A program made the translations under genes and the position numbers. 64,000 nucleotides of DNA from Actinotalea endophytica. GTDB lineage: Bacteria; Actinomycetota; Actinomycetes; Actinomycetales; Cellulomonadaceae. Under the pieces are notes generated by a model, which did no database searches, was not told where the DNA came from, and saw nothing but the letters and a program-made list of their open reading frames with translations. The DNA is taken from contig NZ_JAOVZU010000001.1 in assembly GCF_025717005.1 (NCBI RefSeq), forward strand, positions 363,091 through 427,090, read 5' to 3'. Of this stretch, positions 9,760 to 31,170 are shown in pieces; position 1 is the stretch's first letter, and each line of letters begins with the position of its first letter.

Positions 9760-9783
9760 GCGCCGGAGGTCGACCGTTGAGCG
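9742..9783 (+). repeat. crtEb: 21-bp perfect tandem duplication carrying a ribosome binding site and TTG start
   Basis: The segment from 9742 to 9762 is repeated exactly at 9763-9783. Each copy contains GGAGGT, then six bases, then TTGA. The first copy supplies the crtYf stop (9757-9759) and a TTG start at 9756; the second supplies a second GGAGGT and an in-frame TTG at 9777. The prenyltransferase gene therefore has two equivalent initiation sites 21 bases apart. Confidence 0.9.
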
Positions 9784-10646: not shown

Positions 10647-10652
10647 CCACGG

Positions 10653-10830
10653 GGGAGCACGGCTCGAGCGCGGCCGTGAGCACGGGGAGGGCGGCTCGAG
10701 CGCTGGGCAGGCCCGGGGAGGGCGGCTCGAGCGCTGGGCAGGCCCGGGGAGGGCGGCTCGAGCGCTGGGCAGGCCGGGGAACGCGGCTCGAGCACTGGGC
10801 AGGCCCGCTGAGCACGGCGCGAGCGAGGGG
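10653..10830. repeat. 31-bp minisatellite downstream of the carotenoid operon
   Basis: GGCTCGAG recurs at 10661, 10693, 10724, 10755 and 10785, with a degenerate copy near 10816, giving a period of 30-32 bases. The central three units are nearly identical and read GGCGGCTCGAGCGCTGGGCA plus about 11 G/C-rich bases. Units are directly adjacent with no unique spacers, so this is a tandem repeat, not CRISPR. It lies between the crtEb stop and a terminator hairpin. Each unit contains a 6-bp XhoI-like palindrome. Confidence 0.85.
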
Positions 10831-10926
10831 TGGCCCGCGGACGCAATCCGAGTCTGGGCCCCCTGCGCCCAGACGCCCTGCGCCCGCGGGCCGTCTCAGC
10901 CGTCACCGTGTCCGGTCACGGAAAAT

Positions 10927-10968
10927 GCGCTGCCGGGTCGCGGAGGAGTGCACGCGACCCGGCAGCGC
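10927..10968 (-). terminator. 16-bp perfect stem hairpin, terminator-like
   Basis: GCGCTGCCGGGTCGCG at 10927-10942 pairs perfectly with 10953-10968 across a 10-base loop. On the minus strand the stem is followed by CATTTTCC, so it best fits an intrinsic terminator for leftward transcription (from upp). It may also stop rightward transcripts from the crt operon, although no T-run follows on that side. The remaining DNA to 11273 holds no gene I can support. Confidence 0.6.
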
Positions 10969-11273
10969 AGCGTCCTGAGTCGGCATCCCCCGAGCGGACC
11001 AGGACGTCCTGAGTGCCGATCACGCGGATCGACACCCTGGCCGGCGACAGAAGGTGCGTGGCCCCCCAGCCCTCACGCTCCGTCGCCGTCCATGAAAGCC
11101 GTCGTCAGCCGGTGGGCGGGAGAGGCGGCCCGCTTGTCACACGACCTCTGACGGAAGTCACGAGAACAGTGTGCGCCGTGATGACCGAGGACACCAAGGG
11201 CAGGTCGCCGCACGTCTCACATGCTGGACGATCTTGAGTGTATGCCCAGGTCAGGGCTTCGGAGTGCGGCGCA

Positions 11274-11310
11274 GATCACTCAGTTGGCGGCGTCCGCCAG
11301 ACGGGTGATC
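11274..11310. terminator. Nested inverted repeat 60 bp downstream of upp
   Basis: GATCAC at 11274-11279 pairs with GTGATC at 11305-11310, and inside it GGCGG (11286-11290) pairs with CCGCC (11294-11298). This is an interrupted hairpin just past the end of upp. There is no T-run, so it is a weaker terminator candidate than the one at 10927-10968. Confidence 0.35.
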
Positions 11311-11369
11311 GCCGTGTCACACGGGTCGTGACAGGGTGACTGAGCGGGATGGGCGAGGTGTGTGACCGG

Positions 11370-12005
11370 TCAGACGACGCCGTACAGGCGGTCGCCCGCG
11401 TCGCCGAGGCCGGGCACGATGTAGCCCTTCTCGTTGAGCCGCTCGTCGACGGCCGCCACGACGATCGAGACGTCGGCCCGGTCGCCGACGTGACGCTCGA
11501 CGGTCGCGATGCCCTCGGGCGCCGCGAGCAGGCAGATGCACGTCACGTCGGTGGCGCCGCGCTCGAAGAGGTAGTCGATGCTCGCGATGAGCGTCCCGCC
11601 GGTCGCCAGCATCGGGTCCAGCACGTAGCACTGCCGGCCGGACAGGTCGTCCGGCAGCCGGTTGGCGTAGGTGATCGCCTGGAGCGTCTCCTCGTCGCGC
11701 TGCAGGCCGAGGAACCCGACCTCGGCGGTCGGCAGCAGCCGTGCCATGCCCTCGAGCATCCCGAGGCCGGCGCGCAGGATCGGGACGACCATCGGCCGGG
11801 GCTCGGCCAGGTGGGTGCCCGTGGTCGGCGCGACCGGGGTCACGATGTCGCGCGGCTCGACGCGCACCTCGCGGGTCGCCTCGTAGGCGAGCAGCGTGAC
11901 CAGCTCGTCGACGAGCTGACGGAACGTGGCGGAGCTGGTCTTCACGTCGCGCAGGACGGTCAGCTTGTGGGCGACGAGCGGGTGATCGGCGACGTGCAGG
12001 CGCAT
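11370..12005 (-). CDS. upp: Uracil phosphoribosyltransferase
   Basis: Converts uracil and PRPP to UMP (pyrimidine salvage, cytoplasm). The 211-residue protein has the PRPP-binding loop [11 protein letters not shown], the family stretch [10 protein letters not shown] and the uracil-binding C-terminal segment [18 protein letters not shown]. Length matches the family. The start ATG lies 6 bases after a TAGGTT -10 box, so the mRNA is probably leaderless. It is divergent from tadA across only 36 bases. Confidence 0.97.
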
Positions 12006-12041
12006 GGCTGCAACCTACCGCCCTCTGCCAGAGTGGGAGAC
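12006..12041. promoter_or_regulatory. 36-bp divergent promoter region between upp and tadA
   Basis: On the minus strand, TAGGTT occupies 12017-12012, then six bases, then the upp ATG at 12005: the actinobacterial leaderless arrangement. For tadA on the plus strand only a weak CAGAGT (12029-12034) followed by 7 bases and GTG is visible. The spacing is too short for two complete promoters with separate leaders. Confidence 0.5.
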
Positions 12042-12506
12042 GTGCACCCGCGGCCCGCCGACGTCGAGGCGATGCGCGCTGCGCTGGTCGAGGGTCGCGC
12101 CGCGCTCGCGACCGGTGACGTGCCGGTCGGCGCGCTCGTGGTCGATGCGGACGGCGTGGTCGTCGGGCGCGGCCACAACGCGCGCGAGGCGACCGGTGAC
12201 CCGACCGCGCATGCCGAGGTCCTCGCGCTGCGCGAGGCGGCCGAGCGCACCGGGAGCTGGCGGCTCGACGGCTGCACCCTGGTCGTGACGCTCGAGCCGT
12301 GCGCGATGTGCGCCGGGGCGATCGTGCTCGCGCGGGTGCCGCGCCTGGTGCTGGGCGCGTGGGACCCCAAGGCCGGCGCCTGCGGCTCGGTGCACGACCT
12401 GGTGCGCGACCCCCGGCTCAACCACCGCGTCGAGGTGACCGGCGGCGTGCTGGCGGAGGAGTGCGCGGCCTCGCTCCGCGACTTCTTCACCGACCACCGC
12501 CTGTGA
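12042..12506 (+). CDS. tadA: tRNA-specific adenosine deaminase
   Basis: Deaminates A34 to inosine in tRNA-Arg(ACG). The 154-residue zinc deaminase has the catalytic HAE (PTAHAEVLAL) and the zinc-binding EPCAMCAGAI. The GTG at 12042 gives a normal length; an in-frame ATG at 12072 would remove the first helix. A paired inverted-repeat element follows about 20 bases after its stop. Confidence 0.93.
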   Translation: MHPRPADVEAMRAALVEGRAALATGDVPVGALVVDADGVVVGRGHNAREATGDPTAHAEVLALREAAERTGSWRLDGCTLVVTLEPCAMCAGAIVLARVPRLVLGAWDPKAGACGSVHDLVRDPRLNHRVEVTGGVLAEECAASLRDFFTDHRL

Positions 12507-14113: not shown

Positions 14114-14204
14114 GGTAGCGTGTCCGAGCGGCCAAAGGAGCACGCCTCGAAAGCGTGTGTGGGTGATGAGCCCACCGTGGGTTCGAATCCCACCGCTACC
14201 GCCA
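14114..14204 (+). tRNA. tRNA-Ser, anticodon CGA
   Basis: A class II tRNA of 91 bases including an encoded CCA. The acceptor strand GGTAGCG pairs with CGCTACC; the anticodon stem CACGC/GCGTG encloses a CTCGAAA loop giving anticodon CGA for UCG codons. A long variable arm (TGTGGGTGATGAGCCCACC) and a T-loop GTTCGAATC are present. No repeat of its 3' end indicating an integrated element was found nearby. Confidence 0.97.
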
Positions 14205-16822: not shown

Positions 16823-16951
16823 TCAGTCCTCGTCGTCGGGGTCCGGCCCGGCGCGCCGGGTGTCCCGCCGGAGCACCAGGATCGCGGTGATCAGACCGCC
16901 CCAGATCACCGAGGCGCTGAGCACCAGGAACGTCACGGCCGTGGCGGTCAT
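16823..16951 (-). CDS. metS: MetS-type small subunit of the sodium-dependent transporter
   Basis: A 42-residue single-helix membrane peptide (about residues 5-27 hydrophobic, IWGGLITAILVL, then a charged tail) that overlaps the 3' end of the transporter gene by ATGA. In Corynebacterium glutamicum a peptide of this kind, MetS, is needed with MetP for methionine and alanine uptake. It matches that family in size, composition and position. Confidence 0.85.
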   Translation of the reverse strand: MTATAVTFLVLSASVIWGGLITAILVLRRDTRRAGPDPDDED

Positions 16952-18483
16952 CGCCGCCCCCTTCCGCCGAGCCCGGGCAACGCGTCCGGGACGAAGTCGT
17001 CGACCGCGCTGCGCCACGGGACCAGCGTCATCCCGATCGCCACCACGAGCACGAAGCCGAGCGACCCCCAGCCGAACAGCCCGAGGATCCACGCCGGGTA
17101 GTCCTCGTACGGCGTGACCGCGAGCGACACGGCGCCGCGCACCAGGATGTAGCCGAGCACCAGCGGCACGACGATGCCGACCAGGAACCGCCACCACGTG
17201 CCCATCGAGAGCCCGGGCCGGTTGTTCAGGTGGGCCTGCAGCTCGCGCAGGCGCCGCAGCGCGAACCCGACGAGCAGCGTGCTCAGGACCGCGGAGCCGA
17301 CCACGCCGAGGTCGTTGATGAACTTGTCCACCGTGTCCAGGACGTACAGACCGGTGGTCGTGGAGAACAGCACGATCGAGATCACCGCGGCGACGGTGCC
17401 GATCCGCGCGGCGGCCTGCCGCGGGCTCCAGCCGAGCTTCTCCTGGAACGCCGCCGAGACCACCTGCAGGATCGACAGCAGCGAGGTCAGGCCGGCGAGC
17501 GTCAGCGACGCGAAGAACAGCACACCGAACACCGGCCCACCCGGCATCAGCGACAGGATCTGCGGGAACGCGATGAACGCCAGCCCGAGCCCCTGGATCG
17601 TGGTGAGGTCGCCGACCGCGACGCCCTGCTGCCCGGCGATGAAGCCCAGCGCGCTGAACACCCCGATCCCGGCGAGCAGCTCGAACGAGGAGTTCGCGAA
17701 GCCGACCACCAGGCCCGTCGAGGTGAGCAGGGCGCGCCGGCGCAGGTACGACGAGTACGTGATCATGATGCCGAACGCGATCGACAGCGAGAAGAAGATC
17801 TGCCCGTACGCCGCGATCCACACCTGGGGGTCGCGCAGGGCCACCCAGTCGGGTGTGAAGAACGCGTTCAGGCCGTCAGTAGCGCCTGGCAGCGTGACCG
17901 CTCGGATCACGATCACCAGGAACATCACGACGAGCAGCGGGATGAACACGACGTTCGCCCGCTCGACCCCGCGCTGCACGCCGAGCGACAGGATCACGAC
18001 CGCGACGACCCACACGAGCACCAACGGGATGAGCACGGACGGCACGACGGTGGCGGACGGTGTCGATGGGTCACCGGCCTGCAGGTAGTCGACGGCGAAG
18101 AACCCGGCGGGGTCCTCACCCCAGGCCTGGGTGGCGGCGAACACCGTGTAGCTCGCGGACCAGGCGATCACGACCGTGTAGTAGAGGATGATCACCCAGG
18201 ACACACCGACCTGGAACCAGCCGAGCGTCTCGGCGCGCCGGGACATCCGGCGGAACGACGTCGGGGCCGACCCACGGAACCGGTGGCCGATCGAGTAGTC
18301 GAGCAGCAGGATCGGGATCCCGGCCGTGAGCAGCGCGACCAGGTAGGGGATGAGGAACGCACCGCCGCCGTTGTCGTAGGCGACGCCGGGGAAGCGCCAG
18401 ATGTTGCCGAGGCCCACGGCGGACCCGACCGCGGCCAGGATGAAGCCCACCTGGCTGGACCACTGCTCGCGGGGTCGTGTCAC
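16948..18483 (-). CDS. metP: NSS-family sodium-dependent transporter, MetP-like
   Basis: A 511-residue neurotransmitter:sodium symporter with about 12 helices. The first helix carries the Na+ site GSAVGLGNIWRFPGVAYDNGG, typical of LeuT-fold transporters. Next to the MetS-type peptide, the likely substrates are methionine and alanine. The GTG at 18483 places the start six residues before the conserved SSQVGFILAAVGS. Divergent from the TelA gene. Confidence 0.88.
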   Translation of the reverse strand: MTRPREQWSSQVGFILAAVGSAVGLGNIWRFPGVAYDNGGGAFLIPYLVALLTAGIPILLLDYSIGHRFRGSAPTSFRRMSRRAETLGWFQVGVSWVIILYYTVVIAWSASYTVFAATQAWGEDPAGFFAVDYLQAGDPSTPSATVVPSVLIPLVLVWVVAVVILSLGVQRGVERANVVFIPLLVVMFLVIVIRAVTLPGATDGLNAFFTPDWVALRDPQVWIAAYGQIFFSLSIAFGIMITYSSYLRRRALLTSTGLVVGFANSSFELLAGIGVFSALGFIAGQQGVAVGDLTTIQGLGLAFIAFPQILSLMPGGPVFGVLFFASLTLAGLTSLLSILQVVSAAFQEKLGWSPRQAAARIGTVAAVISIVLFSTTTGLYVLDTVDKFINDLGVVGSAVLSTLLVGFALRRLRELQAHLNNRPGLSMGTWWRFLVGIVVPLVLGYILVRGAVSLAVTPYEDYPAWILGLFGWGSLGFVLVVAIGMTLVPWRSAVDDFVPDALPGLGGRGRR

Positions 18484-18683
18484 TGTCCGTCCTCGTGCCT
18501 CGTCGTTCGCCCGTTCGGAGCGGCCAAGTCTCCCGGACGGACAGCTGTCGCGGCACCACCGTGTTGCGACGTGGGACTTCGGGGGCCGGTCCCGCCCGCG
18601 CGCGGGGCCGTTCGCGTATGTTGACGGCTGTCCCGAGGTGTCCCCTGTCGCCGGGACGAGAGGGTCGAGGAGGACGGACCGCC

Positions 18684-19922
18684 ATGACCGACGCCGCTGC
18701 CGAACCTGCACCGCTGCGCCCACCCGTGCCGGACGACGAGCCGGTGCTCGCGCTGAGCGCACCGCCACCCGTCCAGAAGGTCGCGGAGACGGCGGCGCCC
18801 AAGATGGCCCCTGCGGTCGATCCCGCCGCCCTGCCGGGCCTGGACGCCAAGGTCGAGGCGTACCTCGGCTCGCTGCTGGCCGCCGACCCCCGCTCGCCGG
18901 AGTTCGGCTCCAAGGCGGCCGACGTGCGGTCGATGGGCGACGACGACATCCGCCGCGCTGCCGAGACGTCGAACCGGCTGCTCAAGACCCCGGTCCGGGC
19001 GATCCGCGAGGGCGGCCTGGCCTCGGGCTCGCAGGTGGGTCAGACGCTCGTCGAGCTGCGCCGCACGGTCGAGGACCTCGACCCGGCCGGCGCGCAGGGC
19101 TCGCGCAAGTTCCTCGGGATCCTGCCGTTCGGCGACAAGATCACCGACTACTTCCGCAAGTACCAGAGCGCGCAGTCGCACCTGGACGCGATCCTGCACG
19201 CCCTGCGCGACGGGCAGGACGAGCTGCGCAAGGACAACGCGGCCCTCAACCTGGAGAAGACCGAGCTGTGGGAGGCGATGACCCGCCTCAACCAGTACGT
19301 CTACATCGCCGAGCGGCTGGACGCCCAGCTCGCGGCCCGGGTCTCCGAGCTCTCGGTGACCGAGACCGAGCACGCCCAGGCGCTGCGCGACGACGTCCTC
19401 TTCTACGTCCGCCAGAAGCACCAGGACCTGCTCACCCAGCTCGCCGTCTCGATCCAGAGCTACCTGGCCATCGACGTGGTGATCAAGAACAACCTCGAGC
19501 TGGTCAAGGGCGTCGACCGCGCGTCCACCACGACGGTCTCGGCCCTGCGCACGGCGGTGATCGTGGCGCAGGCGCTCGGCAACCAGAAGCTCGTGCTCGA
19601 CCAGGTCACCGCGCTGAACACCACCACCTCGGGGCTGATCGAGCGCACCTCGGAGATGCTCAAGGACAACTCCGTGGCGATCCAGCAGCAGGCCGCGTCG
19701 GCCACCATCGGCCTGCCGCAGCTGCAGGCCGCGTTCGCGAACATCTACGACACGATGGACGCGATCGACTCGTTCAAGGCCGAGGCGCTGGACTCGATGG
19801 CCGCGACGATCGGCGTGCTGGAGACCGAGGTGGGCAAGTCCCAGCAGTACCTCGACCGCGTGCGCCGGCAGGACGAACGGGTCGCGACGGGGTCGCTGGA
19901 CCTCGGGCCGTCCGCGGGATGA
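18684..19922 (+). CDS. TelA family (toxic anion resistance) protein
   Basis: A 412-residue, helix-rich cytoplasmic protein with the TelA signature: KFLGILPFGDKITDYFRKYQ near residue 145, followed by long coiled-coil-like segments (LRKDNAALNLEKTELWEAM; SIQSYLAIDVVIKNNLELVK). Its first 60 residues are Pro/Ala-rich. TelA proteins are linked to tellurite and peptide-stress responses but their activity is unknown. An AGGAGGA site precedes the ATG; a possible -10 TATGTT is at 18617-18622. First gene of the ten-gene kinase operon. Confidence 0.9.
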   Translation: MTDAAAEPAPLRPPVPDDEPVLALSAPPPVQKVAETAAPKMAPAVDPAALPGLDAKVEAYLGSLLAADPRSPEFGSKAADVRSMGDDDIRRAAETSNRLLKTPVRAIREGGLASGSQVGQTLVELRRTVEDLDPAGAQGSRKFLGILPFGDKITDYFRKYQSAQSHLDAILHALRDGQDELRKDNAALNLEKTELWEAMTRLNQYVYIAERLDAQLAARVSELSVTETEHAQALRDDVLFYVRQKHQDLLTQLAVSIQSYLAIDVVIKNNLELVKGVDRASTTTVSALRTAVIVAQALGNQKLVLDQVTALNTTTSGLIERTSEMLKDNSVAIQQQAASATIGLPQLQAAFANIYDTMDAIDSFKAEALDSMAATIGVLETEVGKSQQYLDRVRRQDERVATGSLDLGPSAG

Positions 19923-19946
19923 CCCGGCCGACCGAGGGAGGCGTGC

Positions 19947-20651
19947 GTGGCGTCCGTCGGTGAGCTGCTCGGGCGGCTGCTCGGGCGCCGCGACGACGAC
20001 TCCGACCGGCTGGTCCTGCCGCCGGTGCCGACCGCGGCGGAGCTCGTCGCCGAGCTCGACCGGGTCGAGGAGATGGCCGCCGATGCGGCCGTCCCGTCGC
20101 CGGTCGAGTCGCGGGTGCGCCGGGTGACCGCCGTGGTGCGGGACGCGATCGCCCGCCTGGACCGGATGGGCAGCGGCAGCGAGCACGCCTACCTGGTGAT
20201 GGCGACCGCGACGGACTACCTGCCGGACGCGGTCGGGGCCTACCTGCGGCTGCCGCGGGACTGGGCCAACAGCCGCCCGGTCGACGGCGGGCGCACCTCG
20301 CTCATGGTGCTCGTCGACCAGCTGGACCTCCTGGCCCGCACGATGGGCGGGGTGCTCGACGCCGTGAACCGGCGTGACGCCGCAGCGCTCGTCGCGCACG
20401 GGCGGTTCCTCGCCGAGCGGTTCGGGACCGCGGGCGGCCGGCTGTCGCTCGACGCGGTGGCGCCCGGCGCGGGTCCGGCGCCCGGCGCGGGGCCGGTCGC
20501 GCCGGCAGCCCTGGGCGCTCCCGGTGCCACGGCAGGCCCGGACGTGACCGCCCCCGGTGGGCCGGCGCCCGCACCCGGTGCGGACCCTGCGGGATCGCCT
20601 GCACCGGCCGCCGAGCCCGACCAGCGGCTGCAGCCCCCGGAGCCGGTATGA
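19947..20651 (+). CDS. Hypothetical helical protein of the TelA-PknG operon
   Basis: A 234-residue soluble protein, not assigned to a family with confidence. Residues about 1-160 are helical ([35 protein letters not shown]), resembling the small helical partners often encoded after TelA genes. The remainder is a Pro/Gly/Ala-rich tail with repeated [13 protein letters not shown] units, likely disordered. GTG start 24 bases after the TelA stop; its end overlaps the ATPase gene by ATGA. Confidence 0.7.
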
Positions 20652-22201
20652 CGCTCACCGAGGCGCTGGACGCGCTCGCCGACGTCGCGGTGCGGGCCGG
20701 GCTGCGTGCCGACGACGCCCGCGACGAAGGCGCGCGGCTGTCTGCTGCACTCGCGGAGTCGGCGCCCGGGGCAGCGGCCGACTGGGCCGCCGCGACCGGT
20801 GTCGAGTCGTCGGTCGCCGACGCGTTCTTCGACGCGGCCTCGCGTGGCCGACGCTGGCGGTCGGCGCCCACCCGACTGCTCGGCGAGCTGGTCGCGACCC
20901 GGTCCGCGCACGCCGACGCCTATGCCACCGCGCTCGCCGAGATCGCCTCGGCCGCGTGCGAGCTGGGCGAGCCGACGCTCCGGGTGGTCGGCAACGCCTC
21001 GGTCGCCGCGGCGGCACAGCTCGCGGCGGTCGGTCGCGGGCGGCCCGCCGGACGGCACGCGGGCGGTCCGGACGGCGGCTCGGCGTGGCCGGACGTGGCA
21101 GGTGCGGATCCTGCGTCGCCCGCAGCCCCGCCGGCCGGGCCGGAGCCCGTGCGAGTCGCGGGATCCGACGCCGAGCGTGCTCGGGGAGCCGTGTCCGATC
21201 GGGGAGCCGTGCCCGTACCGGAGTCCGGACCCGCACCGGAGTCCGAGCCCGCGCCCGAGACCCGGCCGAGCGTCGAGGAGCTGCTCGCCGAGCTGGACGG
21301 CCTGATCGGCCTGGGCACCGTCAAGCGCGAGGTGCACCGGCAGGCGGCCGTGCTGCGGGTCGCGCAGCTGCGCGCTGAGCAGGGGCTCCGGACCACGACG
21401 ATCAGCCGTCACCTCGTCTTCACCGGGAACCCGGGGACCGGCAAGACCACCGTCGCCCGCCTGGTCAGCGGCATCTACGCGGCGCTCGGGGCGCTCGAGA
21501 AGGGGCACCTGGTCGAGGTCGACCGGTCCGACCTCGTCGCCGGGTACCTCGGCCAGACCGCGATGAAGACCGCGGAGGTCGTCGGGACCGCGATCGACGG
21601 CGTCCTGTTCATCGACGAGGCGTACTCGCTGGTCGGGGACCAGTACGGCGACGAGGCGATCGACACCCTGGTCAAGGCGATGGAGGACCACCGCGACGAC
21701 CTCGTGGTGATCGTCGCCGGGTACCCGGGACCGATGGCCGAGCTGATCGACTCCAACCCGGGTCTGGCCAGCCGGTTCCGCACCACGATCGAGTTCGACG
21801 ACTACGACGACGACGAGCTCGTGCAGATCTTCGGCCGACTGGCGGAGCAGGCCGACTTCGAGCCGACGGACGCCGCGCTGGCGGGCTTCCGCGAGGAGCT
21901 GGCGGGGACGCCGCGCGACGAGGCGTTCGGCAACGCGCGGTTCGCGCGCAACGTGCTGGAGGCGGCGATCGGGCGGCACGCGTGGCGGTTGCGGGACGTC
22001 GCCGCCCCGACGCTGGAGCAGCTCCGGCTGCTCGAGCCGGACGACCTCGCCGACGACGCAGATGACGATGTCGAGGACCGTGCCGCCGACCGGGTCGAGG
22101 ACCCCGCCGCCGACCGTGTCGAGGACCCCTCCGACGACCCGGCCGACGAACCGGAGGTCACCGCCCCGGCGGAGCCGACAGGGCAGGATGGGGTGCTGTG
22201 A
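20648..22201 (+). CDS. CbxX/CfqX-type AAA+ ATPase
   Basis: A 517-residue protein. Residues 1-120 are helical, followed by a Pro-rich linker, then an AAA+ module from about 215: [15 protein letters not shown], Walker [10 protein letters not shown], Walker [12 protein letters not shown], and sensor region [10 protein letters not shown] with an Arg finger in LASRF. This resembles CbbX and the EccA chaperones of type VII secretion. A highly acidic tail with [14 protein letters not shown] repeats follows. Role inferred: remodelling or chaperoning of a partner in this signalling complex. Overlaps both neighbours by 4 bases. Confidence 0.88.
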
Positions 22202-23502
22202 CCACGCCGCCGCCACCTCCCGCGCCGGTCGTCGTGCCGCGCAGCAGCAGCGCACCGCCGCCCCCACCGGACCCTGCCCCGCGCCGGCGCAGCACCCCGG
22301 CCACGATGCGGCTGATGGCCATCGGTCTCGCCGTCATCGGGCTGCTGGTCGCGGCCGCGTCGGTGCAGACGTTCGTCGGCGCCGACCGGGCGCTGGCCCG
22401 GGCCGACGCCAACGCCGCCCAGCTGGTCCGGCTCCAGGACGTCCAGACGAGCCTGGTGCGCGCCGACGCCGACGTCACCAACGCGTTCCTGGTCGGCGGG
22501 CTCGAACCCGCCGAGCTGCGGACCGACTACGACGAGGCGATCTCCACGGCCGCGCGCCAGGTCACCTTCGCCGCCGAGGCGCAGCCCGCCGACGCCACGG
22601 TGCTGGCCGACCTGGCCACGCAGATCCAGAGCTACACCGGCACGGTCGAGCTGGCCCGCGCGAACAACCGCCAGGCGCTGCCGGTCGGAGCCCAGTACCT
22701 CAAGAACGCCAGCGCCGGGCTCCGGGCCGACTCGCTGCCCGCGCTCGCGGCGCTGATCGACGCCAACGAGACCCGGGTGGACGTCGAGCTCGGCAACGCG
22801 CGGAACGCGCTGTGGGTCTCGATGGCCGGTGCGCTGGGTCTGCTCGCCCTGGTCGCGGCGATGGTGTGGCTGGCGCGGCGTACGCACCGCTACCTCAACC
22901 TGCCGATGGTGGCCGCCACGACGCTGCTCGCGGTGTACCTCGTGGTCGCGATCACCGCGATGGCCGGGCTCTCGAGCGCTGTGCGGTCCGCCGAGCTCGG
23001 CCCCTACGCGGCAGCCCGCGCGCTGTCCGAGGCGCGCATCGCCGCGTTCGACGCGAAGTCGAACGAGAGCCTCACCCTGATCGCCCGCGGGTCGGGCGCC
23101 GCCTTCGAGGAGGCCTGGCAGACCGCGTCCGGCACGGCGACCGAGCGGTTGGACGAGCAGGCCGCCACGGACTGGACCTACGGCGGGACGGACCCGCGGG
23201 ACGACTGGTCGGCGTACGTCGCGCTGCACGCGGACATCCGGGCCGCCGACGACGGGGGTGACTGGGACCAGGCCGTGGCCCTGGCCACCAGCCGCGAACC
23301 CGGTAGCGCGAACGCCGCGTTCGCGGCGTTCGACGAGACGTCCACCGCAGCGCTCGACCAGGCGGGCGCCGACGTGACCGCAGCGCTCGACCGGCCGCGC
23401 GGCAGCACGATCGTCCTGGCGCTCGCGGGCGCCCTGGTGGGGCTCCTGGTCGCGGCGCTCTCGTGGCGCGGGCTCGGCACCCGGATCGAGGAGTACCGAT
23501 GA
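22198..23502 (+). CDS. glnX: GlnX-like membrane signal transducer
   Basis: A 434-residue protein with a short Pro-rich cytoplasmic start, a membrane helix at about 37-60, an extracellular helical domain to about 200, a hairpin of two helices (about 205-260), a second extracellular domain and a last helix near 402-426. This four-helix layout, its size and its place directly before the binding lipoprotein and PknG match GlnX, which in mycobacteria relays amino-acid binding by GlnH to PknG. No HAMP or kinase motif is present. GTG start overlaps the ATPase stop. Confidence 0.8.
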
Positions 23503-24473
23503 GCCGCCTCGCGGTGCGCGTGCTGCCGATCGCCCTGGTCCTCGCCACGGCCCTGGCCGGTTGCACCGACGCGTACGACGAGACCGTGGTCCCCTCGCCG
23601 TCGCCCAGCGAGTCGGCCACGGCCTCTTCGGGCTCGTCCTCGAGCGCCTCCGAGCCGGTCGCCTGCGAGGACGTCCTGGCCTCGTACGACCCGTTGGACC
23701 CGCTGCCCGGGCCGACCGACCTGCCGGCCGGTTCGACCATGGCGGCGATCCGTGAGCGCGGGCGGCTCATCGTCGGGGTCTCGGCGGACTCGCTGCTGCT
23801 CGGTGCACGCGACCCGATCAGCGGTCAGATCCAGGGCTTCGACATCGACATGGCGAGGCTCGTCGCGGCGGCGATCCTCGGCGACCCGGACGCGATCGAG
23901 CTGCGGGTGATCACCGCGGCCCAGCGCATCCCGGTGCTGGTCGACCACGAGGTCGACCTGGTGGCGCGGAACATGACGATCACGTGCGACCGGTGGGAGC
24001 AGGTCGCCTTCTCCGCCGAGTACTACCGGTCCGGTCAGAAGGTGCTCGTCACGCTGGACTCCACGGCGACGTCGATGGCCGACCTGGACGGGGCCCGGGT
24101 CTGCGCGCCCGCGAGCTCGACCAGCCTCGCCCGGCTCGACGAGTACCCCGACGTGATCCCCGTGGCGGGCACGACGCACACCGACTGCCTGGTGAAGTTC
24201 CAGCAGGGCGAGGTCGACGCCATCACCGGCGACGACACCGTGCTCGCCGGCCTGGCCGCGCAGGACCCGTACGCCAAGGTGATCGGCGACGCGTTCAGCG
24301 ACGAGCCCTACGGTCTCGCGATGGCGCCCGACCAGGTCGACCTGGTGAGCTTCGTCAACGCGGTCCTCGACCAGGCCAAGGCCGACGGCACCTGGATGGC
24401 CTCCTACGACAGGTGGCTCGCGCCGGCCCTCGGACCGATCGACGCCCCGCCGCCGTCGGTCTACGGGCGATGA
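23499..24473 (+). CDS. glnH: GlnH-like amino-acid-binding lipoprotein
   Basis: A 324-residue periplasmic binding protein (family 3) with a lipobox LATALAGC, a Ser-rich spacer, then IRERGRLIVGVSADSLLLG and GFDIDMARLVAAAILG as in glutamate/aspartate-binding proteins. No ABC permease or ATPase gene is adjacent; instead it is translationally coupled to glnX, as in the GlnH-GlnX-PknG sensor pathway where it detects amino acids. Ligand inferred as Glu/Gln/Asp. Confidence 0.88.
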   Translation: MSRLAVRVLPIALVLATALAGCTDAYDETVVPSPSPSESATASSGSSSSASEPVACEDVLASYDPLDPLPGPTDLPAGSTMAAIRERGRLIVGVSADSLLLGARDPISGQIQGFDIDMARLVAAAILGDPDAIELRVITAAQRIPVLVDHEVDLVARNMTITCDRWEQVAFSAEYYRSGQKVLVTLDSTATSMADLDGARVCAPASSTSLARLDEYPDVIPVAGTTHTDCLVKFQQGEVDAITGDDTVLAGLAAQDPYAKVIGDAFSDEPYGLAMAPDQVDLVSFVNAVLDQAKADGTWMASYDRWLAPALGPIDAPPPSVYGR

Positions 24474-25582
24474 TCAGCGCTCCGGCCGCGCCCGGCCGCC
24501 CGGGTGAACCCGTCGAGCCCGGCGCGATGCTCGCGTTCCTGCGGGATCTCGGCTCCTGGCGCGACGGCAGGCGCCACGAGCTCGACGAGCTCGACGACGC
24601 TGCTCTGGCCTCCCCGGACCGGGCCGCGCTGACCGGCGACATGACCTTGGCCATGACGCTGTGGCAGGCGGTCGCGACCCGCGCCGACGAGCTCGAGGAC
24701 GTCTGGGACTCCGGACGGGTGGGGCCGACCGAGCTGCAGCGCCTCTCCGCGATGGTGTGGGGCAGGCTCGGGGACGGCGGCGCCCTGGCCGTGTCGCTGC
24801 CCGAGGCCTGCCGGCTGTCCGACGCGGTCGTCGCCCAGCTGCGTCGGCGGCTCTCGCTGGACCCCGTCGACCATGGGCTCGGCACGCGGCTGCGATCCGT
24901 GCGCGCGGCCCTCGAGCGGATCCGCGACCTGGTGGCCGACGTCCCGCCCGCGGGCCGGGCCGACGCGGTCGGTCGGCTCGACGCGTTGGACCGCCGCGCG
25001 ACGGACCTGGTCGACCGCGCGCGGCGGGGTGCGGACGTCGGCGGCATGGTCGGGCCGCTGGAGACCGATGTCGCGATCGCCGAGCGTGACCTGATCGTCG
25101 CGGCCGCCACGCGTCGGGACGCGGAACGGGACCGGGCACGTGCCGAGGAGCTGCGGAGCCGGTTGGCGGCTCGCGGCGAGGCCGTGGCCGCCGTGGTCGA
25201 CGAGTGCGTCGCGTCGGTCCGGCCCGCGCCGGTGCTCGCGGTGCCGCGGGTCGAGGCCCTCGGCCCGGTCCCGGGCGACCCGGCCGCCGTCGAGGCCTAC
25301 CTCGACCGGCTCGGCGACGTCGCGCGGGCCATGGACGTGGTCGAGCGCGCCTACCGCGAACCGGTCGCCGAGCTGAGCGAGCTGCGCGCCCTGCTGGACG
25401 GCTACCGGGCCAAGGCCGCCGCGACCGGCCTCGACGCGCGGCCCGAGGTGGTCGGCCTGGCCGCGCTCGCCGCCGACGTGGTCGACCAGCGGCCGGCAGA
25501 CCTGGACCGTTCCCGGGCCGCCGTCGCGGCCTACCGGACCTTGCTGGCCCCGCCGCCCGACGCCACCCGAGGAGGACTCTGA
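24470..25582 (+). CDS. Hypothetical helical protein between glnH and pknG
   Basis: A 370-residue soluble, Ala/Asp/Arg-rich and strongly helical protein with long amphipathic stretches (LETDVAIAERDLIVAAATRR; RARAEELRSRLAARGEAV), suggesting coiled coils. No signal peptide, membrane segment or recognised domain. The ATG overlaps the glnH stop and its TGA overlaps the pknG ATG, so it is expressed in step with both. It could bridge the sensor and the kinase; that is inference. Confidence 0.75.
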   Translation: MISAPAAPGRPGEPVEPGAMLAFLRDLGSWRDGRRHELDELDDAALASPDRAALTGDMTLAMTLWQAVATRADELEDVWDSGRVGPTELQRLSAMVWGRLGDGGALAVSLPEACRLSDAVVAQLRRRLSLDPVDHGLGTRLRSVRAALERIRDLVADVPPAGRADAVGRLDALDRRATDLVDRARRGADVGGMVGPLETDVAIAERDLIVAAATRRDAERDRARAEELRSRLAARGEAVAAVVDECVASVRPAPVLAVPRVEALGPVPGDPAAVEAYLDRLGDVARAMDVVERAYREPVAELSELRALLDGYRAKAAATGLDARPEVVGLAALAADVVDQRPADLDRSRAAVAAYRTLLAPPPDATRGGL

Positions 25583-27774
25583 TGGCCGCCTGCACCCAGC
25601 CGGGCTGCACCGGCGCGATCGTCGACGGCTACTGCGACATCTGCGGGTCGCCGCCGGACGCTGCACCGGTGACCGCACCCGTCGTGCCGGGTGACGTGTC
25701 GACGTCGACGCGGACCTCGAGCCGCCTGGCGTCGACCGCGATCGGCTCGGCCCGCGGCCGGACCGGGGTGACCCGTCGGGTCGGCACCGCGTCCCGACGG
25801 CTGCGGGCCGCACGGCTCGGCGCCGGCCTGACCACGGTCGCACCGCAGCCGCCGATCGACCCGGTCCACGCCATCCTCACCGACCCCCAGGTCGCCGAGG
25901 AGAAGCGGTTCTGCCCGTCGTGCGGTGCGCCCGTCGGACGCTCGATCGACGGACGGCCGGGGCGCACCGAGGGGTTCTGCCCGCAGTGCCGCACCAAGTA
26001 CTCGTTCGACCCGACACTTGCCCCGGGCGACCTCGTCGGCGGGCAGTACGAGGTGGCCGGCGCGCTCGCGCACGGCGGCCTCGGCTGGATCTACCTCGCT
26101 CGCGACCGCAACGTGTCCGACCGCTGGGTCGTGCTCAAGGGCCTGCTGAACACCGGTGACGCGGACGCCCAGGCCGCGGCGATCGCCGAACGGCAGTTCC
26201 TCGCCCAGGTCGAGCACCCGAGGATCGTGGAGATCTACAACTTCGCGGTGCACGACGGGGCCGGCTACACCGTCATGGAGTACGTCGGCGGCATCTCGCT
26301 CAAGCAGATCCTCAAGGATCGGATGGCCGCGGCCGGGCGCTACGACCCGTTCCCGCTGGACCAGGCGATCGCCTTCGTCCTGGAGATCCTCCCGGCCTTC
26401 GAGTACCTGCACGACCTGGGGCTGGTCTTCTGCGACTTCAAGCCGGACAACCTGATCCAGGTCGGTGACGACGTCAAGCTGATCGACCTGGGCGGGGTGC
26501 GTCGGTTCGACGACGCCGACTCGGCGATCTACGGCACGGTCGGCTACCAGGCGCCCGAGGTGCCCACCGACGGCGTCAGCGTCGCCTCGGACGTCTACAC
26601 GATCGGGCGCACCCTGCTGGTGCTCGCGATGGAGTTCCGCGGCTACCAGTCCACCTACGTCGCCTCGCTCCCGCCGGTCGGCGAGACCCCGCTGTTCCAG
26701 CGCTACGACGCGTTCTACCGCCTCGTCGCGAAGGCGTGCGCGCCCGACCCTGCCGACCGGTTCGCGACCGTCGCCGAGCTGCGCGTGCAGCTGCACGGGG
26801 TGCTGCGCGAGGTCGTCGCGACCGACCGTGGCGACGCGGCCGCCACCCTGGCGGCGCCGTCGCTGAACTTCGCGGCGCCCGACGTGGCGGCCTCGGAGCT
26901 CACCTGGCGCGACATCCCGCGGCTGCTCGTCGACCCCGGCGACCCGCAGTCCGGCTGGCTCGCGACCCTCGGGGTGGAGGACCCGCAGGCGCGGCTCGCG
27001 GCCCTGGCCCAGGCGCCCGAGCGGTCGCCCGAGGTCGTGCTGGCCCAGGGACGTGCCGCGCTGCTCGCCGGACAGGCTCCCGCGGTCGCCCCGCTGGCCG
27101 ACGAGCTGCTCGCGGCCGACCCGTGGGAGTGGCGAGCCGTGTGGCTGCAGGGCCTCGCGGCGCTCGTCGCGAACGACGGTCCGGCCGCGCAGGCGGCGTT
27201 CAACGCCGTGTACGGCCAGGTCCCGGGGGAGCTGGCGCCGAAGCTCGCCCTCGCCCTCGCGTGCGAGCACACCGGTGAGCTGGACATCGCCGACGCGCTG
27301 TACTCCACGTGCGCGCGCACCGATGCGGCGTACGTGCCCCCGGCGGCCTTCGCGCTGGCCCGGATCCGGGCCACCCGGGCCTCGGTCGGGGATGCGGTGG
27401 CTGCGCTCGAGCTCGTGCCGGCGACCAGTCGGGCGTACCCCGAGGCGCGGTTCCACCGTGCCGAGGCGCTGCTCGCCACGAACGGCGGCCTCCCGGCTCT
27501 CGCCGAGGCGATGGCCAGCATCGAGGTCGCGGGGATCGACCCGAAGGAACGCCTGCAGGTCGCCGCCGCGGTGCTGTCCCGCGCGCTGGGCGAGGTCCGG
27601 CGGACCGGCCCGCAGCCGGCGATCATGATCGGCCGGTGGCGGGCGGTCGAGCCGGTGCTGCGCGACGGGCTCGAGGAGACCTACCGCGCGCTCGCCCAGG
27701 TGACCGACGAACCGTCGGAGCGGGTGGCCCTGGTGGATGCGGCGAACGGGGTCCGACGGTGGACGATGCTGTGA
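25582..27774 (+). CDS. pknG: PknG-type serine/threonine protein kinase
   Basis: A soluble kinase of 730 residues with PknG architecture. It starts with a small Cys motif (CTQPGCTGAIVDGYCDICG), then a rubredoxin-like metal site (FCPSCGAPVG and FCPQCRTKY, near 112-145). The kinase domain (about 155-420) has Gly loop AHGGLGWIYLA, Lys in VVLKG, catalytic loop CDFKPDN and DLG in place of DFG. TPR-like helices form the C-terminal 300 residues. In mycobacteria and corynebacteria PknG phosphorylates the FHA protein GarA/OdhI to control 2-oxoglutarate metabolism. Confidence 0.95.
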   Translation: MAACTQPGCTGAIVDGYCDICGSPPDAAPVTAPVVPGDVSTSTRTSSRLASTAIGSARGRTGVTRRVGTASRRLRAARLGAGLTTVAPQPPIDPVHAILTDPQVAEEKRFCPSCGAPVGRSIDGRPGRTEGFCPQCRTKYSFDPTLAPGDLVGGQYEVAGALAHGGLGWIYLARDRNVSDRWVVLKGLLNTGDADAQAAAIAERQFLAQVEHPRIVEIYNFAVHDGAGYTVMEYVGGISLKQILKDRMAAAGRYDPFPLDQAIAFVLEILPAFEYLHDLGLVFCDFKPDNLIQVGDDVKLIDLGGVRRFDDADSAIYGTVGYQAPEVPTDGVSVASDVYTIGRTLLVLAMEFRGYQSTYVASLPPVGETPLFQRYDAFYRLVAKACAPDPADRFATVAELRVQLHGVLREVVATDRGDAAATLAAPSLNFAAPDVAASELTWRDIPRLLVDPGDPQSGWLATLGVEDPQARLAALAQAPERSPEVVLAQGRAALLAGQAPAVAPLADELLAADPWEWRAVWLQGLAALVANDGPAAQAAFNAVYGQVPGELAPKLALALACEHTGELDIADALYSTCARTDAAYVPPAAFALARIRATRASVGDAVAALELVPATSRAYPEARFHRAEALLATNGGLPALAEAMASIEVAGIDPKERLQVAAAVLSRALGEVRRTGPQPAIMIGRWRAVEPVLRDGLEETYRALAQVTDEPSERVALVDAANGVRRWTML

Positions 27775-28925
27775 CCGTCTGCCCGCAGTGCGGCACGCGC
27801 GTGGCCGCCGACGACCGGTTCTGCGAGGAGTGCGGGGCGGACCTTCCCCGAGTGGCGCCCGCCGCACCGGGGGGCCAGTCGGCCGACGACCTGGCGGTCG
27901 CCACCGGTGCCGGTACCGATGCGGCCACCGGCGTCGAGACCGGCGCCGAGACCGATGCGGAGAGCGAAGCGACCGCACCCTTGGCCTGGGGCCGGCGGGC
28001 GGTCGCGCCGCGGACCTGCCACGAGTGTGGCGGTGAGATCGACCCCGACGGCTACTGCACGCAGTGCGGAGCGAAGGCCCCCCGGCCGCGGGACCACCTC
28101 GCGTCCCGGCCAGCCGCGTGGGTGGCGGCCGTCAGTGACCGCGGGATCCGTCACGACCGCAACGAGGACGCGGCGGCCGTGGTCGCGGAGCCGGCCGATC
28201 GGGCTGCGCTCGTGGTGTGCGACGGGGTGTCCAGCGCGGCCGACTCGGACGTGGCGAGCCTCGAGGCAGCCCGCGCGGCCGCCGGTGTCCTCGCCGGGTC
28301 CGCGGGTCTGGCGACCGGTTCGGCGCTGGCGGCGGCGCTCGGGGCGAGGATCGGTGCGGCTGCAGCAGCGGCCGCCTCGGCCGTGGCCGCCGCCACCTCG
28401 GACGGCGTGGACAGCCCTCCGTCGTGCACGTTCGTCGCGGCCGCGGTCCAGCTGCCGGTCGTGGTGGTCGGCGTGGTCGGCGACAGCCGCGCGTACTGGC
28501 TGCCGGACGACGACGAGCCTGTGCTGCTCACCCTCGACGACTCGGTCGCCGGCCAGCAGATCGCCGCGGGCCGGCCCCGGGCCGAGGCCGAGGCGGGGCC
28601 TCAGGCGCACGCGATCACGCGGTGGCTGGGTGTCGACTCGCCCGACGAGAAACCTCGGCTGACCACGCTCGAGGTCGACCGGGCCGGCTGGCTGGTCCTG
28701 TGCTCGGACGGGCTGTGGAACTACTGCTCGGAGGCTGCCGCGCTGCGCGAGCAGCTTCGCTCGGCGGCCGCCGCGGTCGGCGAGGATCCGCTCGACCTCG
28801 CGTCGGCGCTGGTCGACTGGGCCAACGAGCAGGGCGGGCATGACAACATCACGGTGGTGCTGGCGCGGCTCGGTGCCGACGGCACGCGGCCGGCCGGTGG
28901 GCCGGCAGAAGGGGCGGAGCGATGA
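27771..28925 (+). CDS. PP2C-type phosphatase with double zinc ribbon
   Basis: A 384-residue protein. The N-terminus has two zinc ribbons (CPQCGTR...CEECG and CHECGGEIDPDGYCTQCG) with an Ala/Thr/Glu-rich linker. From about 120 follows a PP2C domain: DRNED and VVCDGVSS for the metal site, VVGDSRAYWL, LCSDGLWNYCSE and GGHDNITVV. All acidic metal ligands are present, so it should be active as a Ser/Thr phosphatase and is the natural opponent of the preceding kinase. GTG start overlaps the pknG stop. Confidence 0.93.
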   Translation: MTVCPQCGTRVAADDRFCEECGADLPRVAPAAPGGQSADDLAVATGAGTDAATGVETGAETDAESEATAPLAWGRRAVAPRTCHECGGEIDPDGYCTQCGAKAPRPRDHLASRPAAWVAAVSDRGIRHDRNEDAAAVVAEPADRAALVVCDGVSSAADSDVASLEAARAAAGVLAGSAGLATGSALAAALGARIGAAAAAAASAVAAATSDGVDSPPSCTFVAAAVQLPVVVVGVVGDSRAYWLPDDDEPVLLTLDDSVAGQQIAAGRPRAEAEAGPQAHAITRWLGVDSPDEKPRLTTLEVDRAGWLVLCSDGLWNYCSEAAALREQLRSAAAAVGEDPLDLASALVDWANEQGGHDNITVVLARLGADGTRPAGGPAEGAER

Positions 28926-30199
28926 CCGAGTTCTCGGCTGCGGTCTACCAGAACGAGTACCTCGCGGGCGGGAGCACGGACGTCCACGCGATCGTCACGA
29001 TCGCCTGCGCGGGTGCGGGCCAGGCGGGTGCCACGAGCGAGGGGGACGCCGGCGAGATCGTCATCGTCGACACCTCGGCGTCGATGGGCTGGCCCGGCGT
29101 CCGCGCGGCCCAGGCGGCGGCGGCCGCCGCGCTCGACCAGATCATCGACGGCACCTGGTTCGCCCTGGTGGCCGGCACCCACACGGCCCGGCTGGTCTTC
29201 CCGTTCGACGGGACTGCGATGGCGTGGATGGACCCGCGCACACGCGAGCAGGCACGGGCCGCGCTCGGTTCGCTCGCCCCGGACGGCGGCACGGCGATGG
29301 GCACGTGGCTCGAGCTCGCGGCGACCCTCGTGCAGGCGGTCCCGAGCGTGAACCAGGCGCACGCGATCCTGCTCACCGACGGGAAGAACCAGCACGAGCA
29401 GCCGTACGAGCTCGACGCCCGGATGGCCCGCGCCGCCGGCCACCTCCAGGTGGACTGCCGCGGCGTCGGCGCGAACTGGGAGGTCGGCGAGCTCCGCCGG
29501 ATCGCGTCGACGCTGATGGGCAGCGTGGACCTGATCCCGCAGCCCGAGCAGATGGCCGAGGAGTTCGCGATGCTGATGCGCCAGGCGATGGCGCGCGGCG
29601 TCGCCTCGGCCGACCTGCGGGTGTGGGCCCCGCAGGGGGCGCAGGTGCTGTTCGTCCGCCAGGTCGCCCCGAGCGTGGAGGACCTGACGCCGAGGCGCCG
29701 TGAGCTGAACCCGCTGACCGGGGCGTACCCGACCGGGAGCTGGGGCGACGAGCAACGCGACTACCACGTCGCCGTGCGGCTGCCCGCCGCGCGCGCGGTG
29801 GGCCAGGAGCAGCTCGCGGCGCGCGTGCAGCTCGCGGTGCGGGACCAGGTCGTCGCCCAGGGGCTGGTCAAGGCGATGTGGTCGGACGACTCGTCGCTGA
29901 CGGCGCAGATCAGCCCCGAGGTCGCGCACTACACCGGACAGACCGAGCTCGCCGAGGCGATCCAGGACGGCCTGGCCGCCAAGGCGTCGGGCGACGACCG
30001 CACGGCGACGGCCAAGCTCGGTCGTGCCGCGCAGCTCGCCGCCGAGACCGGCAACGCCGAGGTCACCGCCAAGCTCCGCAAGGTCGTCGAGATCGACGAG
30101 GCGGCGACCGGCAAGGTCAGGCTCCGCCGCGACGTCGACAAGCTCGACGAGATGGCGTTGGACACCACGTCGACCAAGACCACGCGGGTGCGCTCGTGA
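28922..30199 (+). CDS. von Willebrand factor A domain protein
   Basis: A 425-residue soluble protein. Residues about 45-210 form a vWA fold with an intact MIDAS: DTSASM, a Thr in DGGTAMGTW and the LTDGKN strand. A beta-rich middle region and a helical C-terminus (about 340-425) follow. The same vWA class accompanies PP2C and kinase genes in other bacterial stress-signalling loci, where it is thought to bind metal and scaffold partners. Start overlaps the phosphatase stop (ATGA); end overlaps the FHA gene (GTGA). Confidence 0.88.
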   Translation: MTEFSAAVYQNEYLAGGSTDVHAIVTIACAGAGQAGATSEGDAGEIVIVDTSASMGWPGVRAAQAAAAAALDQIIDGTWFALVAGTHTARLVFPFDGTAMAWMDPRTREQARAALGSLAPDGGTAMGTWLELAATLVQAVPSVNQAHAILLTDGKNQHEQPYELDARMARAAGHLQVDCRGVGANWEVGELRRIASTLMGSVDLIPQPEQMAEEFAMLMRQAMARGVASADLRVWAPQGAQVLFVRQVAPSVEDLTPRRRELNPLTGAYPTGSWGDEQRDYHVAVRLPAARAVGQEQLAARVQLAVRDQVVAQGLVKAMWSDDSSLTAQISPEVAHYTGQTELAEAIQDGLAAKASGDDRTATAKLGRAAQLAAETGNAEVTAKLRKVVEIDEAATGKVRLRRDVDKLDEMALDTTSTKTTRVRS

Positions 30200-31170
30200 G
30201 CGTGGTCTGCCCGCAGGGGCACACCAGCACCGCGACGGACTACTGCGACACGTGCGGCGCGCCGATCGACGCGGGTGCGGGTGTGGGTGCGGGTGTGGGT
30301 GCGGGTGTGGGTGCGGGTGTGGGTGCGGGCTCTGGCTCCGGCGTGGGTGCGAGCTCTGGATCGGGCTCGGGGACGGGCGCCGGATCGGGCTCGGGGACGG
30401 GCGCCGGATCGGGCTCGGGGACGGGCGCCGGGTCGGGCTCTGGCTCCGGGGCGGGCCCCGGCTCTGCCGGGTTCCCGGGCCCGTCGAGCGCCGTGCCCCC
30501 CGCGCCGCCGACCGCAGCGCCCCCGGTGCCCGCCGCGTCCTCCACCGCCGCCGCGCCGGACGCCCCACCCGGGCCGGCGGGGTCGAGCCCCGAATGCCCG
30601 CACTGCCACACCGTCAACCGACCGGGTGCGCTGTTCTGCGAGGCGTGCGGCTACGACTTCACCACCGGCGCCCTGCCGCGCGGTGCCACCGCTCCCGCTG
30701 CGGACGCCGGCACCGCGTCGCCCGATGCGTCGCCCGCACCCCTCGCCCCGCCGGTCCAGCCGGCCTGGGTCGCGGAGATCTGGGTCGACCCGGCGTGGTA
30801 CGCCGAGCAGGAGGCCGACGACCCCTGCCCGTCGCCGGGACTGCCCGCGGTCGTGCCGCTCACCGTCCGCAGCCTGCTGGTCGGCCGGTTCTCGCGGAGC
30901 CGCAACATCCACCCGGAGATCGACTGCGGGAGCGACGTCGGGGTGAGCCGTCGCCAGGCGCAGCTGACCACCGACGGCTCGCGGTGGTGGATCGAGGACC
31001 TCCAGTCCTCCAACGGCACCTATGTGGGGGCGGCCAGCGGCCCGCTGCCGACGGTCCCGCTGGTGCCGGGTGAGCGGCGCGAGCTCACCGAGGACGACCG
31101 GGTCTACATCGGTGCCTGGACGCGCATCGTCGTGCGCAGGGCGACCGAGGAGGAGCTCGCGGCCTCCTGA
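30196..31170 (+). CDS. FHA-domain protein with zinc ribbons
   Basis: A 324-residue protein. It has an N-terminal Cys motif (CPQGH...DYCDTCG), a 100-residue Gly/Ser/Val then Pro/Ala linker, a second zinc ribbon (CPHCHTVN...CEACGYDF) and a C-terminal FHA domain (about 210-310) with the canonical SRRQAQL and SSNGTYV phosphothreonine-binding residues. It is the likely reader of PknG-operon phosphorylation, analogous to but larger than GarA/OdhI; it lacks the N-terminal Thr-Thr motif of GarA. The linker DNA is repetitive. Last gene of the operon. Confidence 0.9.
30271..30429 (+). repeat. In-frame 12-bp and 24-bp tandem repeats in the FHA gene linker
   Basis: A 12-base unit (GTGGGTGCGGGT) repeats about five times between 30271 and 30330. 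Exact 24-base units lie at 30358-30381, 30382-30405 and 30406-30429, with a partial fourth. Unit lengths are multiples of three, so copy-number change alters the length of the Gly-rich linker without breaking the frame. Confidence 0.9.

Follow-up and report, generated by a model that had tools for sequence, protein, structure and literature searches.

A conserved ten-gene operon extends the glnX-glnH-pknG arrangement in Actinotalea endophytica

Organization of the operon

The window analysed here, a stretch of 64,000 nucleotides from Actinotalea endophytica, carries at 18684-31170 ten open reading frames (ORFs), every one on the + strand, in which the genes for GlnX, GlnH and the Ser/Thr kinase PknG stand together with those for a TelA protein, an AAA+ ATPase, a PP2C phosphatase, a von Willebrand factor type A (vWA) protein, an FHA protein and two helical proteins. 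This ten-gene operon is real and conserved. An earlier note on the same DNA had described ten contiguous, co-directional genes, nearly all overlapping by 1-4 bases, and the junctions are indeed of this kind: 24 nt between telA and orf2 form the sole gap, and the other eight junctions overlap, by 1 base at orf6-pknG and by 4 bases at orf2-aaa, aaa-glnX, glnX-glnH, glnH-orf6, pknG-pp2c, pp2c-vwa and vwa-fha. A crude composition-based gene caller returned the identical ten genes with identical ends. The features are as follows.

18684..19922, + strand: telA, 412 aa, TelA family PF05816 (Pfam, 316 bits)
19947..20651, + strand: orf2, 234 aa helical TelA-associated protein without a named family, with a Pro/Ala-rich C-terminal tail
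20648..22201, + strand: aaa, AAA+ ATPase with AAA_lid_6 and an N-terminal region of its own
22198..23502, + strand: glnX, 434 aa GlnX-family signal transduction membrane protein
23499..24473, + strand: glnH, solute-binding protein family 3 (SBP_bac_3), with a lipobox-like LAGC recognised by eye
24470..25582, + strand: orf6, 370 aa all-helical protein between glnH and pknG, without a named family
25582..27774, + strand: pknG, N-terminal Cys4 zinc-ribbon-like motif, rubredoxin domain, Ser/Thr kinase and TPR
27771..28925, + strand: pp2c, two zinc ribbons, then a PP2C phosphatase domain (PP2C_2) with conserved motifs
28922..30199, + strand: vwa, MIDAS vWA protein with VWA_3_C and a conserved C-terminal tail
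30155..30196, + strand: codons of the conserved vWA tail, last 14 residues (sequence pattern)
30196..31170, + strand: fha, one Pfam zinc ribbon, Gly/Ala/Ser-rich linker and FHA domain, with a second N-terminal Cys/His motif seen by eye

Three of the genes had been ascribed to the known GlnH-GlnX-PknG pathway, and this ascription is borne out. PknG exceeds the cut-offs of PF16919, PF00069 and PF16918, its residues 78-726 align to 2pzi (E 1.8e-130), and the additional N-terminal ribbon, C-x4-C...DGYC-x2-C, was found by pattern. GlnX passes the subfamily model NF058618 (295.9 bits, cut-off 250) but falls below the narrower equivalog NF041460 (105.9 of the 780 needed), and the closest solved relatives of GlnH are 6h2t and 6h1u (GlnH; E 2e-64). 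The families nearest to the ATPase are SpoVK, EccA and CbbX, all under their NCBIfam cut-offs. Compared with the models of Pfam, the vWA protein matches VWA_3_C and general vWA models only. It has a relative over its full length (E 6e-107) in PDB 4fx5, a structure deposited as von Willebrand factor type A, for which no publication giving a function was met, although no search aimed at one was made. Neither orf2 nor orf6 matches any family of Pfam or NCBIfam at E 0.01; the orf2 model has a mean pLDDT (predicted local distance difference test) of 75.5, and that of orf6 is helical, with a mean pLDDT of 93.6, and gave zero Foldseek matches at E <= 0.001. In the FHA protein, the linker encoded at 30275-30470 is a Gly/Val/Ala/Ser repeat from short G+C-rich DNA repeats.

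Conservation among close relatives

Genome contigs were scanned with the window's PknG and the best 80 of 271 relatives were retained with flanks of up to 10 kb, a set which consists of the best matches to the window's own PknG and is rich in Kribbella species. The earlier note had staked its reading on conserved linkage in related genomes, and such linkage was found: the ten genes stand in the same order and on the same strand in 60 of the 80 loci; counting only the 62 loci of 18 kb or more, 58 show it. These ten-gene loci include Cellulomonas, Oerskovia, Kribbella, Terrabacter, Intrasporangium, Microlunatus, Agreia and Kineosporia. The long loci breaking the pattern are L034, L043, L060 and L075, two of which (L060 and L075) are without vwa and fha; in L072 the order is intact, with pp2c and vwa separated by three genes of the opposite strand. 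Of the window's genes outside the block, 23 (8-45 kb) were compared with the 80 loci, and none finds a match in more than a single locus; the comparison extends some 3 kb beyond telA and some 7 kb beyond fha, and farther neighbours are invisible to it. Because the order is kept in 60 of 80 loci while outside genes match at most one, the linkage of the block goes beyond chance.

The tight junctions are also conserved. A 4-base overlap was counted at aaa-glnX in 67/69 loci, glnX-glnH in 67/71, pknG-pp2c in 70/78, orf6-pknG in 66/75, glnH-orf6 in 55/71, vwa-fha in 54/65 and orf2-aaa in 48/66, and is the most frequent arrangement at seven of the nine junctions, although the counts took the in-frame start closest to the upstream stop and are therefore biased to tight junctions. 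The two looser junctions are telA-orf2, which overlaps in 1/65, and pp2c-vwa, which overlaps in 19/73, 4 of these by 4 bases. After thinning to less than 80% PknG identity, 17 of 54 ten-gene loci are left, the window included; among them pairwise distances across the ten proteins correlate at 0.55-0.91, and conservation is highest for TelA (0.705) and vWA (0.672) and lowest for GlnX (0.409). By this measure the sensor diverges and the cytoplasmic parts diverge less.

As a separate observation, L034 (Tetrasphaera australiensis) holds at 7381-12211 an orphan pknG with the other nine genes absent, and the two genes upstream of it resemble, by eye, an IS21-type transposase pair.

Distant loci and PknG phylogeny

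A set of 40 PknG loci picked for diversity was searched with profiles of the ten families. All ten genes occur at 4 of the 40 (L141-L144), and a seven-gene core made of glnX, glnH, orf6, pknG, pp2c, vwa and fha is complete at 13. Nine of these have the window's order (L120, L126, L128, L136, L138, L140, L147, L153, L154), three have glnX-glnH behind fha (L131, L133, L149) and one, L146, from another class, has glnX-glnH on the opposite strand. At three loci (L148, L150, L152) the core lacks a detectable orf6 and the sensors have moved, and at nine (L116-L118, L121-L125, L155) only glnX-glnH-pknG is found, seven of the nine being in the group f8, presumably Mycobacteriaceae. Among the other 11 (L119, L127, L129, L130, L132, L134, L135, L137, L139, L145, L151) are incomplete or rearranged loci, loci truncated by the end of a contig, and loci with pknG only. 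Distant orf6 matches are weak, at 29-46 bits, and position contributed to their assignment; glnX and glnH, too, score weaker where they have moved. A tandem pair of glnH-like ORFs was observed at 4.0-6.8 kb within the seven-gene locus L136.

A quick, unrooted PknG tree was built from 65 rows, namely the window, 24 of the 80 close loci and the 40 distant loci. The ten-gene rows all group in a single clade (29 rows, SH-aLRT 100), to which L034, L043, L060 and L075 belong as well. The telA-orf2-aaa front joins the core in this one PknG clade, and the ten genes are not one ancient unit, the seven being the wider core; the "one complete" ten-gene system of the earlier note has to be given up in this respect. 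The f8 clade has 9 rows: L120, a seven-gene copy, branches off first, and below it stand seven trio loci and L119 with pknG alone. Since the f8 trio clade begins with a seven-gene copy, the three-gene form is probably reduced rather than ancestral, which is the more economical reading on an unrooted tree.

Occurrence of the single families in genomes

We also counted the families in a class sample of 344 genomes, with cut-offs of E <= 1e-10 for PknG_TPR and E <= 1e-20 for the vWA family. PknG_TPR was found in 129 genomes, the vWA family in 86, TelA in 66 and orf2 in 45. Within this sample the vWA family was met only in PknG-bearing genomes (86/86), and 86 of its 104 places are within 12 kb of a same-strand PknG TPR (Fisher p 7e-49, uncorrected for kinship), some of the remaining 18 sitting on short contigs. 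There are 43 PknG genomes without vWA; 31 of them are in f8, where vWA occurs in 2 of 33 PknG genomes.

The two helical proteins singled out by the earlier note as unknown do lack a family match, but orf2 is TelA's usual neighbour and not primarily a PknG partner: it lies within 6 kb of telA at 39 of 52 places, 29 of the 39 being away from PknG (in one of the 29, G652, with a contig break in between). Away from PknG, in L156, telA adjoins an AAA+ gene of the same family as aaa. Other surroundings of telA were observed in passing. At 5981-9701 of L165 telA-orf2 stands away from PknG with a TerD gene, confirmed by Pfam, two genes off; at 660-9984 of L160 it stands, again away from PknG, near TerD-type genes without Pfam confirmation. 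In L161 (6953-11513) the neighbour of TelA is a protein in which solute-binding and vWA domains are fused, and a small membrane-like protein that distantly matches orf2 is also present, which makes another TelA-sensor-vWA linkage; the layout of L170 and L172 looks similar, the domains being confirmed for L161 only.

Conserved motifs and the GarA/OdhI homologue

Motifs were counted in proteins of the 80 close loci above a length cut-off. The AAA+ proteins have Walker A and Walker B in 69/69; PknG has VVLK and CDFKPDN in 78/78 and DLG[GA] in 73/78; PP2C has CDG, SDG and G-x-DN in 76/76; the FHA protein has the GR, SRR and NGT patterns in 61/61; and vWA has the MIDAS pattern and an S-T-[KR]-T-x-R tail in 70/70. 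The R..NED pattern of PP2C matches just 3/76 owing to its spacing, and RNEDA is conserved in the alignment. Judged by these patterns, the enzymes of the operon retain catalytic or binding motifs, in agreement with the linkage of kinase, phosphatase and phospho-reader noticed before.

In the same loci the vWA C-terminus reads D-T-x-S-T-K-T-[TSQ]-R in 70/70, and in the presumed Streptomyces loci L126, L128, L153 and L154 (f7 is presumably Streptomyces) it reads L-E-T-R-S-T-K-T-V-R; the solved relative 4fx5 bears the same kind of S-T-K-T tail. The pattern [DE]T.ST occurs within the last 16 residues of 70/70 vWA proteins versus 0/1209 of the other genes called in the loci. Zinc ribbons recur as well: at least one C-x4-C...C-x2-C ribbon is present in the first 60 residues of PknG in 76/78 proteins, PP2C has two ribbons in 73/76, and the FHA protein has one by regular expression in 61/61, with its second Cys/His motif visible in the alignment.

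The earlier note, which suggested one complete phospho-relay, has to be amended on a further point: a homologue of GarA/OdhI, the known PknG substrate, is encoded elsewhere in the genome. This homologue (G000:C16, 167.9 bits, E 2.7e-49, short of the NF041660 cut-off of 200) shows a Thr-Thr motif and an FHA domain, and homologues are found in 10/10 other genomes searched, 2 of them above the family cut-off. Their phospho-motif region varies (ETTST, ESTST, EQTST, DTTVT and others), the window's genome having DTTMS before the FHA domain. In the GarA loci compared (L176-L185, L082; open frames with starts unchecked), a Cys4 ribbon directly precedes the phospho-motif in 9 of the 10 other genomes, the exception being the f8 GarA. 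At C14 the window's genome carries a 2-oxoglutarate dehydrogenase E1-like gene (PRK09404 model, 1150.8 bits). Matches to Ser/Thr kinases number seven in this genome and those to PP2C four, the operon's included, and there is a second FHA-FHA-PP2C region on C1.

Comparison with known systems

The glnX-glnH-pknG arrangement is described as conserved in Actinomycetales in PMC6069109, and PMC8546545 and PMC9769921 deal with the same three genes. As in the operon of Mycobacterium and Corynebacterium, the homologues keep the same relative order and strand here, and the genome has a homologue of GarA/OdhI as well; unlike there, orf6 splits glnH from pknG, telA-orf2-aaa precede, pp2c, vwa and fha follow, and PknG has the additional N-terminal Cys4 motif. 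The earlier note did not know the extended composition as a characterised system, and no description of it was found in the searchable literature, whose journal coverage is incomplete.

For the kinase-PP2C-vWA part, the nearest analogues are the TerY-P and GAP1-N2 systems. PMC11090510, citing Anantharaman 2012, gives TerY-P as vWA, PP2C and a kinase with a C-terminal zinc ribbon. Like that triad, the window has neighbouring vWA, PP2C and Ser/Thr kinase genes, the last with a metal-binding domain, and a Ter-type telA close by; however its kinase has rubredoxin and ribbon at the N-terminus and ends in PknG_TPR with no zinc ribbon or OB-fold fusion, and the operon adds amino-acid sensors and an FHA protein. 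Theme 3 of the GAP1-N2 systems, described in PMC7159879, likewise joins an actinobacterial kinase, often with a zinc ribbon, to PP2C and a standalone vWA in adjacent genes, but the window operon has sensors and a TPR kinase. No GAP1-N2 component was recognised by Pfam in the operon, whose orf2 and orf6 match no family. The PFNA operon has an FN3 protein, a kinase, an AAA-ATPase, DUF58 and a transglutaminase as members, with a vWA-like member. Set beside the window by description only, this operon of Bifidobacterium (PMC8430577) is alike as an actinobacterial operon with a Ser/Thr kinase and unlike in FN3 and the other members.

A proposed extended phosphorylation switch

We interpret the operon as an extended GlnH-GlnX-PknG switch, in which amino-acid sensing governs Ser/Thr phosphorylation and which has PP2C as its own eraser, FHA as reader and vWA as partner, and we hold this reading to be somewhat better than even (about 0.55). 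On the outer side of the membrane GlnH would bind an acidic amino acid, and GlnX would pass the signal on; PknG, docked through its TPR and perhaps with orf6 as adaptor, would phosphorylate GarA/OdhI and probably also vWA on the D-T-x-S-T-K-T tail. The FHA protein would then read the phospho-threonine and the operon's PP2C would erase the mark, and since all are encoded in the operon, sensor, writer, reader and eraser would be co-produced. PknG, PP2C and FHA, as well as GarA in the genomes mentioned, carry zinc ribbons that may help these proteins to meet. TelA/orf2 and the AAA+ ATPase could form a further layer close to the membrane, driven by ATP and working on the vWA assembly, which is the weakest step of the scheme; PMC7824862 describes TelA as forming sub-membrane structures. 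The earlier interpretation was right in outline and is partly supported overall: its "phospho-relay" stands as a sensing phosphorylation module and not as a relay, the system resembling a switch made of a Ser/Thr kinase and a phosphatase and not being a His-Asp relay.

PknG has been studied as a three-gene system, and OdhI of C. glutamicum is reactivated by the phosphatase Ppp (PMC9769921). In many actinobacteria the kinase arrives with a phosphatase, a phospho-reader and a conserved vWA partner. The extended operon names candidates for PknG reversal, for further PknG substrates and for coupling to GlnX, in organisms that can be handled safely, and suggests that the mycobacterial arrangement is reduced and not complete. 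A bolder version, which we find rather improbable, is that PknG in its fuller form has two outputs, GarA/OdhI on the metabolic side and a phospho-vWA tail read by FHA, together with a zinc-ribbon code, and that the three-gene system lost the second output and the ribbons. In this code, which belongs to that version as a whole, the PknG ribbon would be of the DGYC type and most GarA ribbons of the FC type just before the phospho-motif; PP2C would have one of each type, and the FHA protein likewise, less exactly.

Several points weigh against the extended switch. The physical complex and its remodelling by the ATPase are inferred, and co-localisation alone would be no proof of a complex. The other genes are dispensable for the basic switch, because mycobacterial and C. 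glutamicum PknG works beside GlnX and GlnH only. The vWA tail is altered in L120, L132, L133, L136, L138, L140, L147, L148 and L152 and unrecognisable in L127, L139 and L150, and as [DE]T.ST was chosen after seeing this tail, its counts gauge rarity only; the strict pattern is in just 2/11 GarA sequences, so that the resemblance is partial. The window's own GarA is without a zinc ribbon, and the relation of ribbon to partners (36/49 against 2/16) is not significant after correction for phylogeny. In the class sample telA is within 14 kb of PknG at only 10/68 places, within the taxonomic order to which the window belongs PknG itself is patchily distributed (24/213 genomes), and the trio-only form arises outside f8 too (L124, L125, in f11).

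A first alternative is that pp2c-vwa-fha, and telA-orf2-aaa, are merely co-expressed with a trio that acts on GarA/OdhI only, making two functions on one transcript. The trio-only distant loci, mostly in f8, agree with it, as do telA and orf2 occurring by themselves elsewhere. Against this alternative stands a vWA family found, in the class sample, exclusively in PknG-bearing genomes. Moreover pp2c-vwa-fha are still behind pknG in L131, L133, L148-L150 and L152 despite moved glnX- and glnH-like genes (with their weaker matches), and since the bond of pknG to pp2c, vwa and fha survives the relocation of the sensors, it is independent of the place behind them, the trio-only loci being the converse. 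We consider this explanation unlikely.

Similarly doubtful is a TerY-P-like stress or defence triad of vWA, PP2C and kinase with TelA, in which PknG would be an incidental kinase and the output a chemical-stress or phage response. It draws on the adjacency of vWA, PP2C and a metal-domain Ser/Thr kinase with TelA in the same operon, on the TerY-P composition (vWA, PP2C and zinc-ribbon kinase) given in PMC11090510, and on the orf2-telA pair by a TerD gene in L165, away from PknG. However the metal domains of the kinase are N-terminal and its C-terminus is TPR, PADLOC matches come only from models of the kinase domain and of AAA and from a single weak model of PP2C, GlnX and GlnH are within the core, and the genome encodes a GarA/OdhI homologue. 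Recent common descent of one locus, without function, is very improbable: many of the 80 loci are closely related, but 17 ten-gene loci persist below 80% PknG identity, the near flanks differ and the 4-base overlap prevails at most junctions.

Neighbouring features

Upstream of telA, at 16948-18500, lies a divergent gene that by eye resembles a sodium:neurotransmitter symporter and is matched, among the 80 loci, in L002 only. A tRNA-Ser (CGA) is located at 14114-14204.

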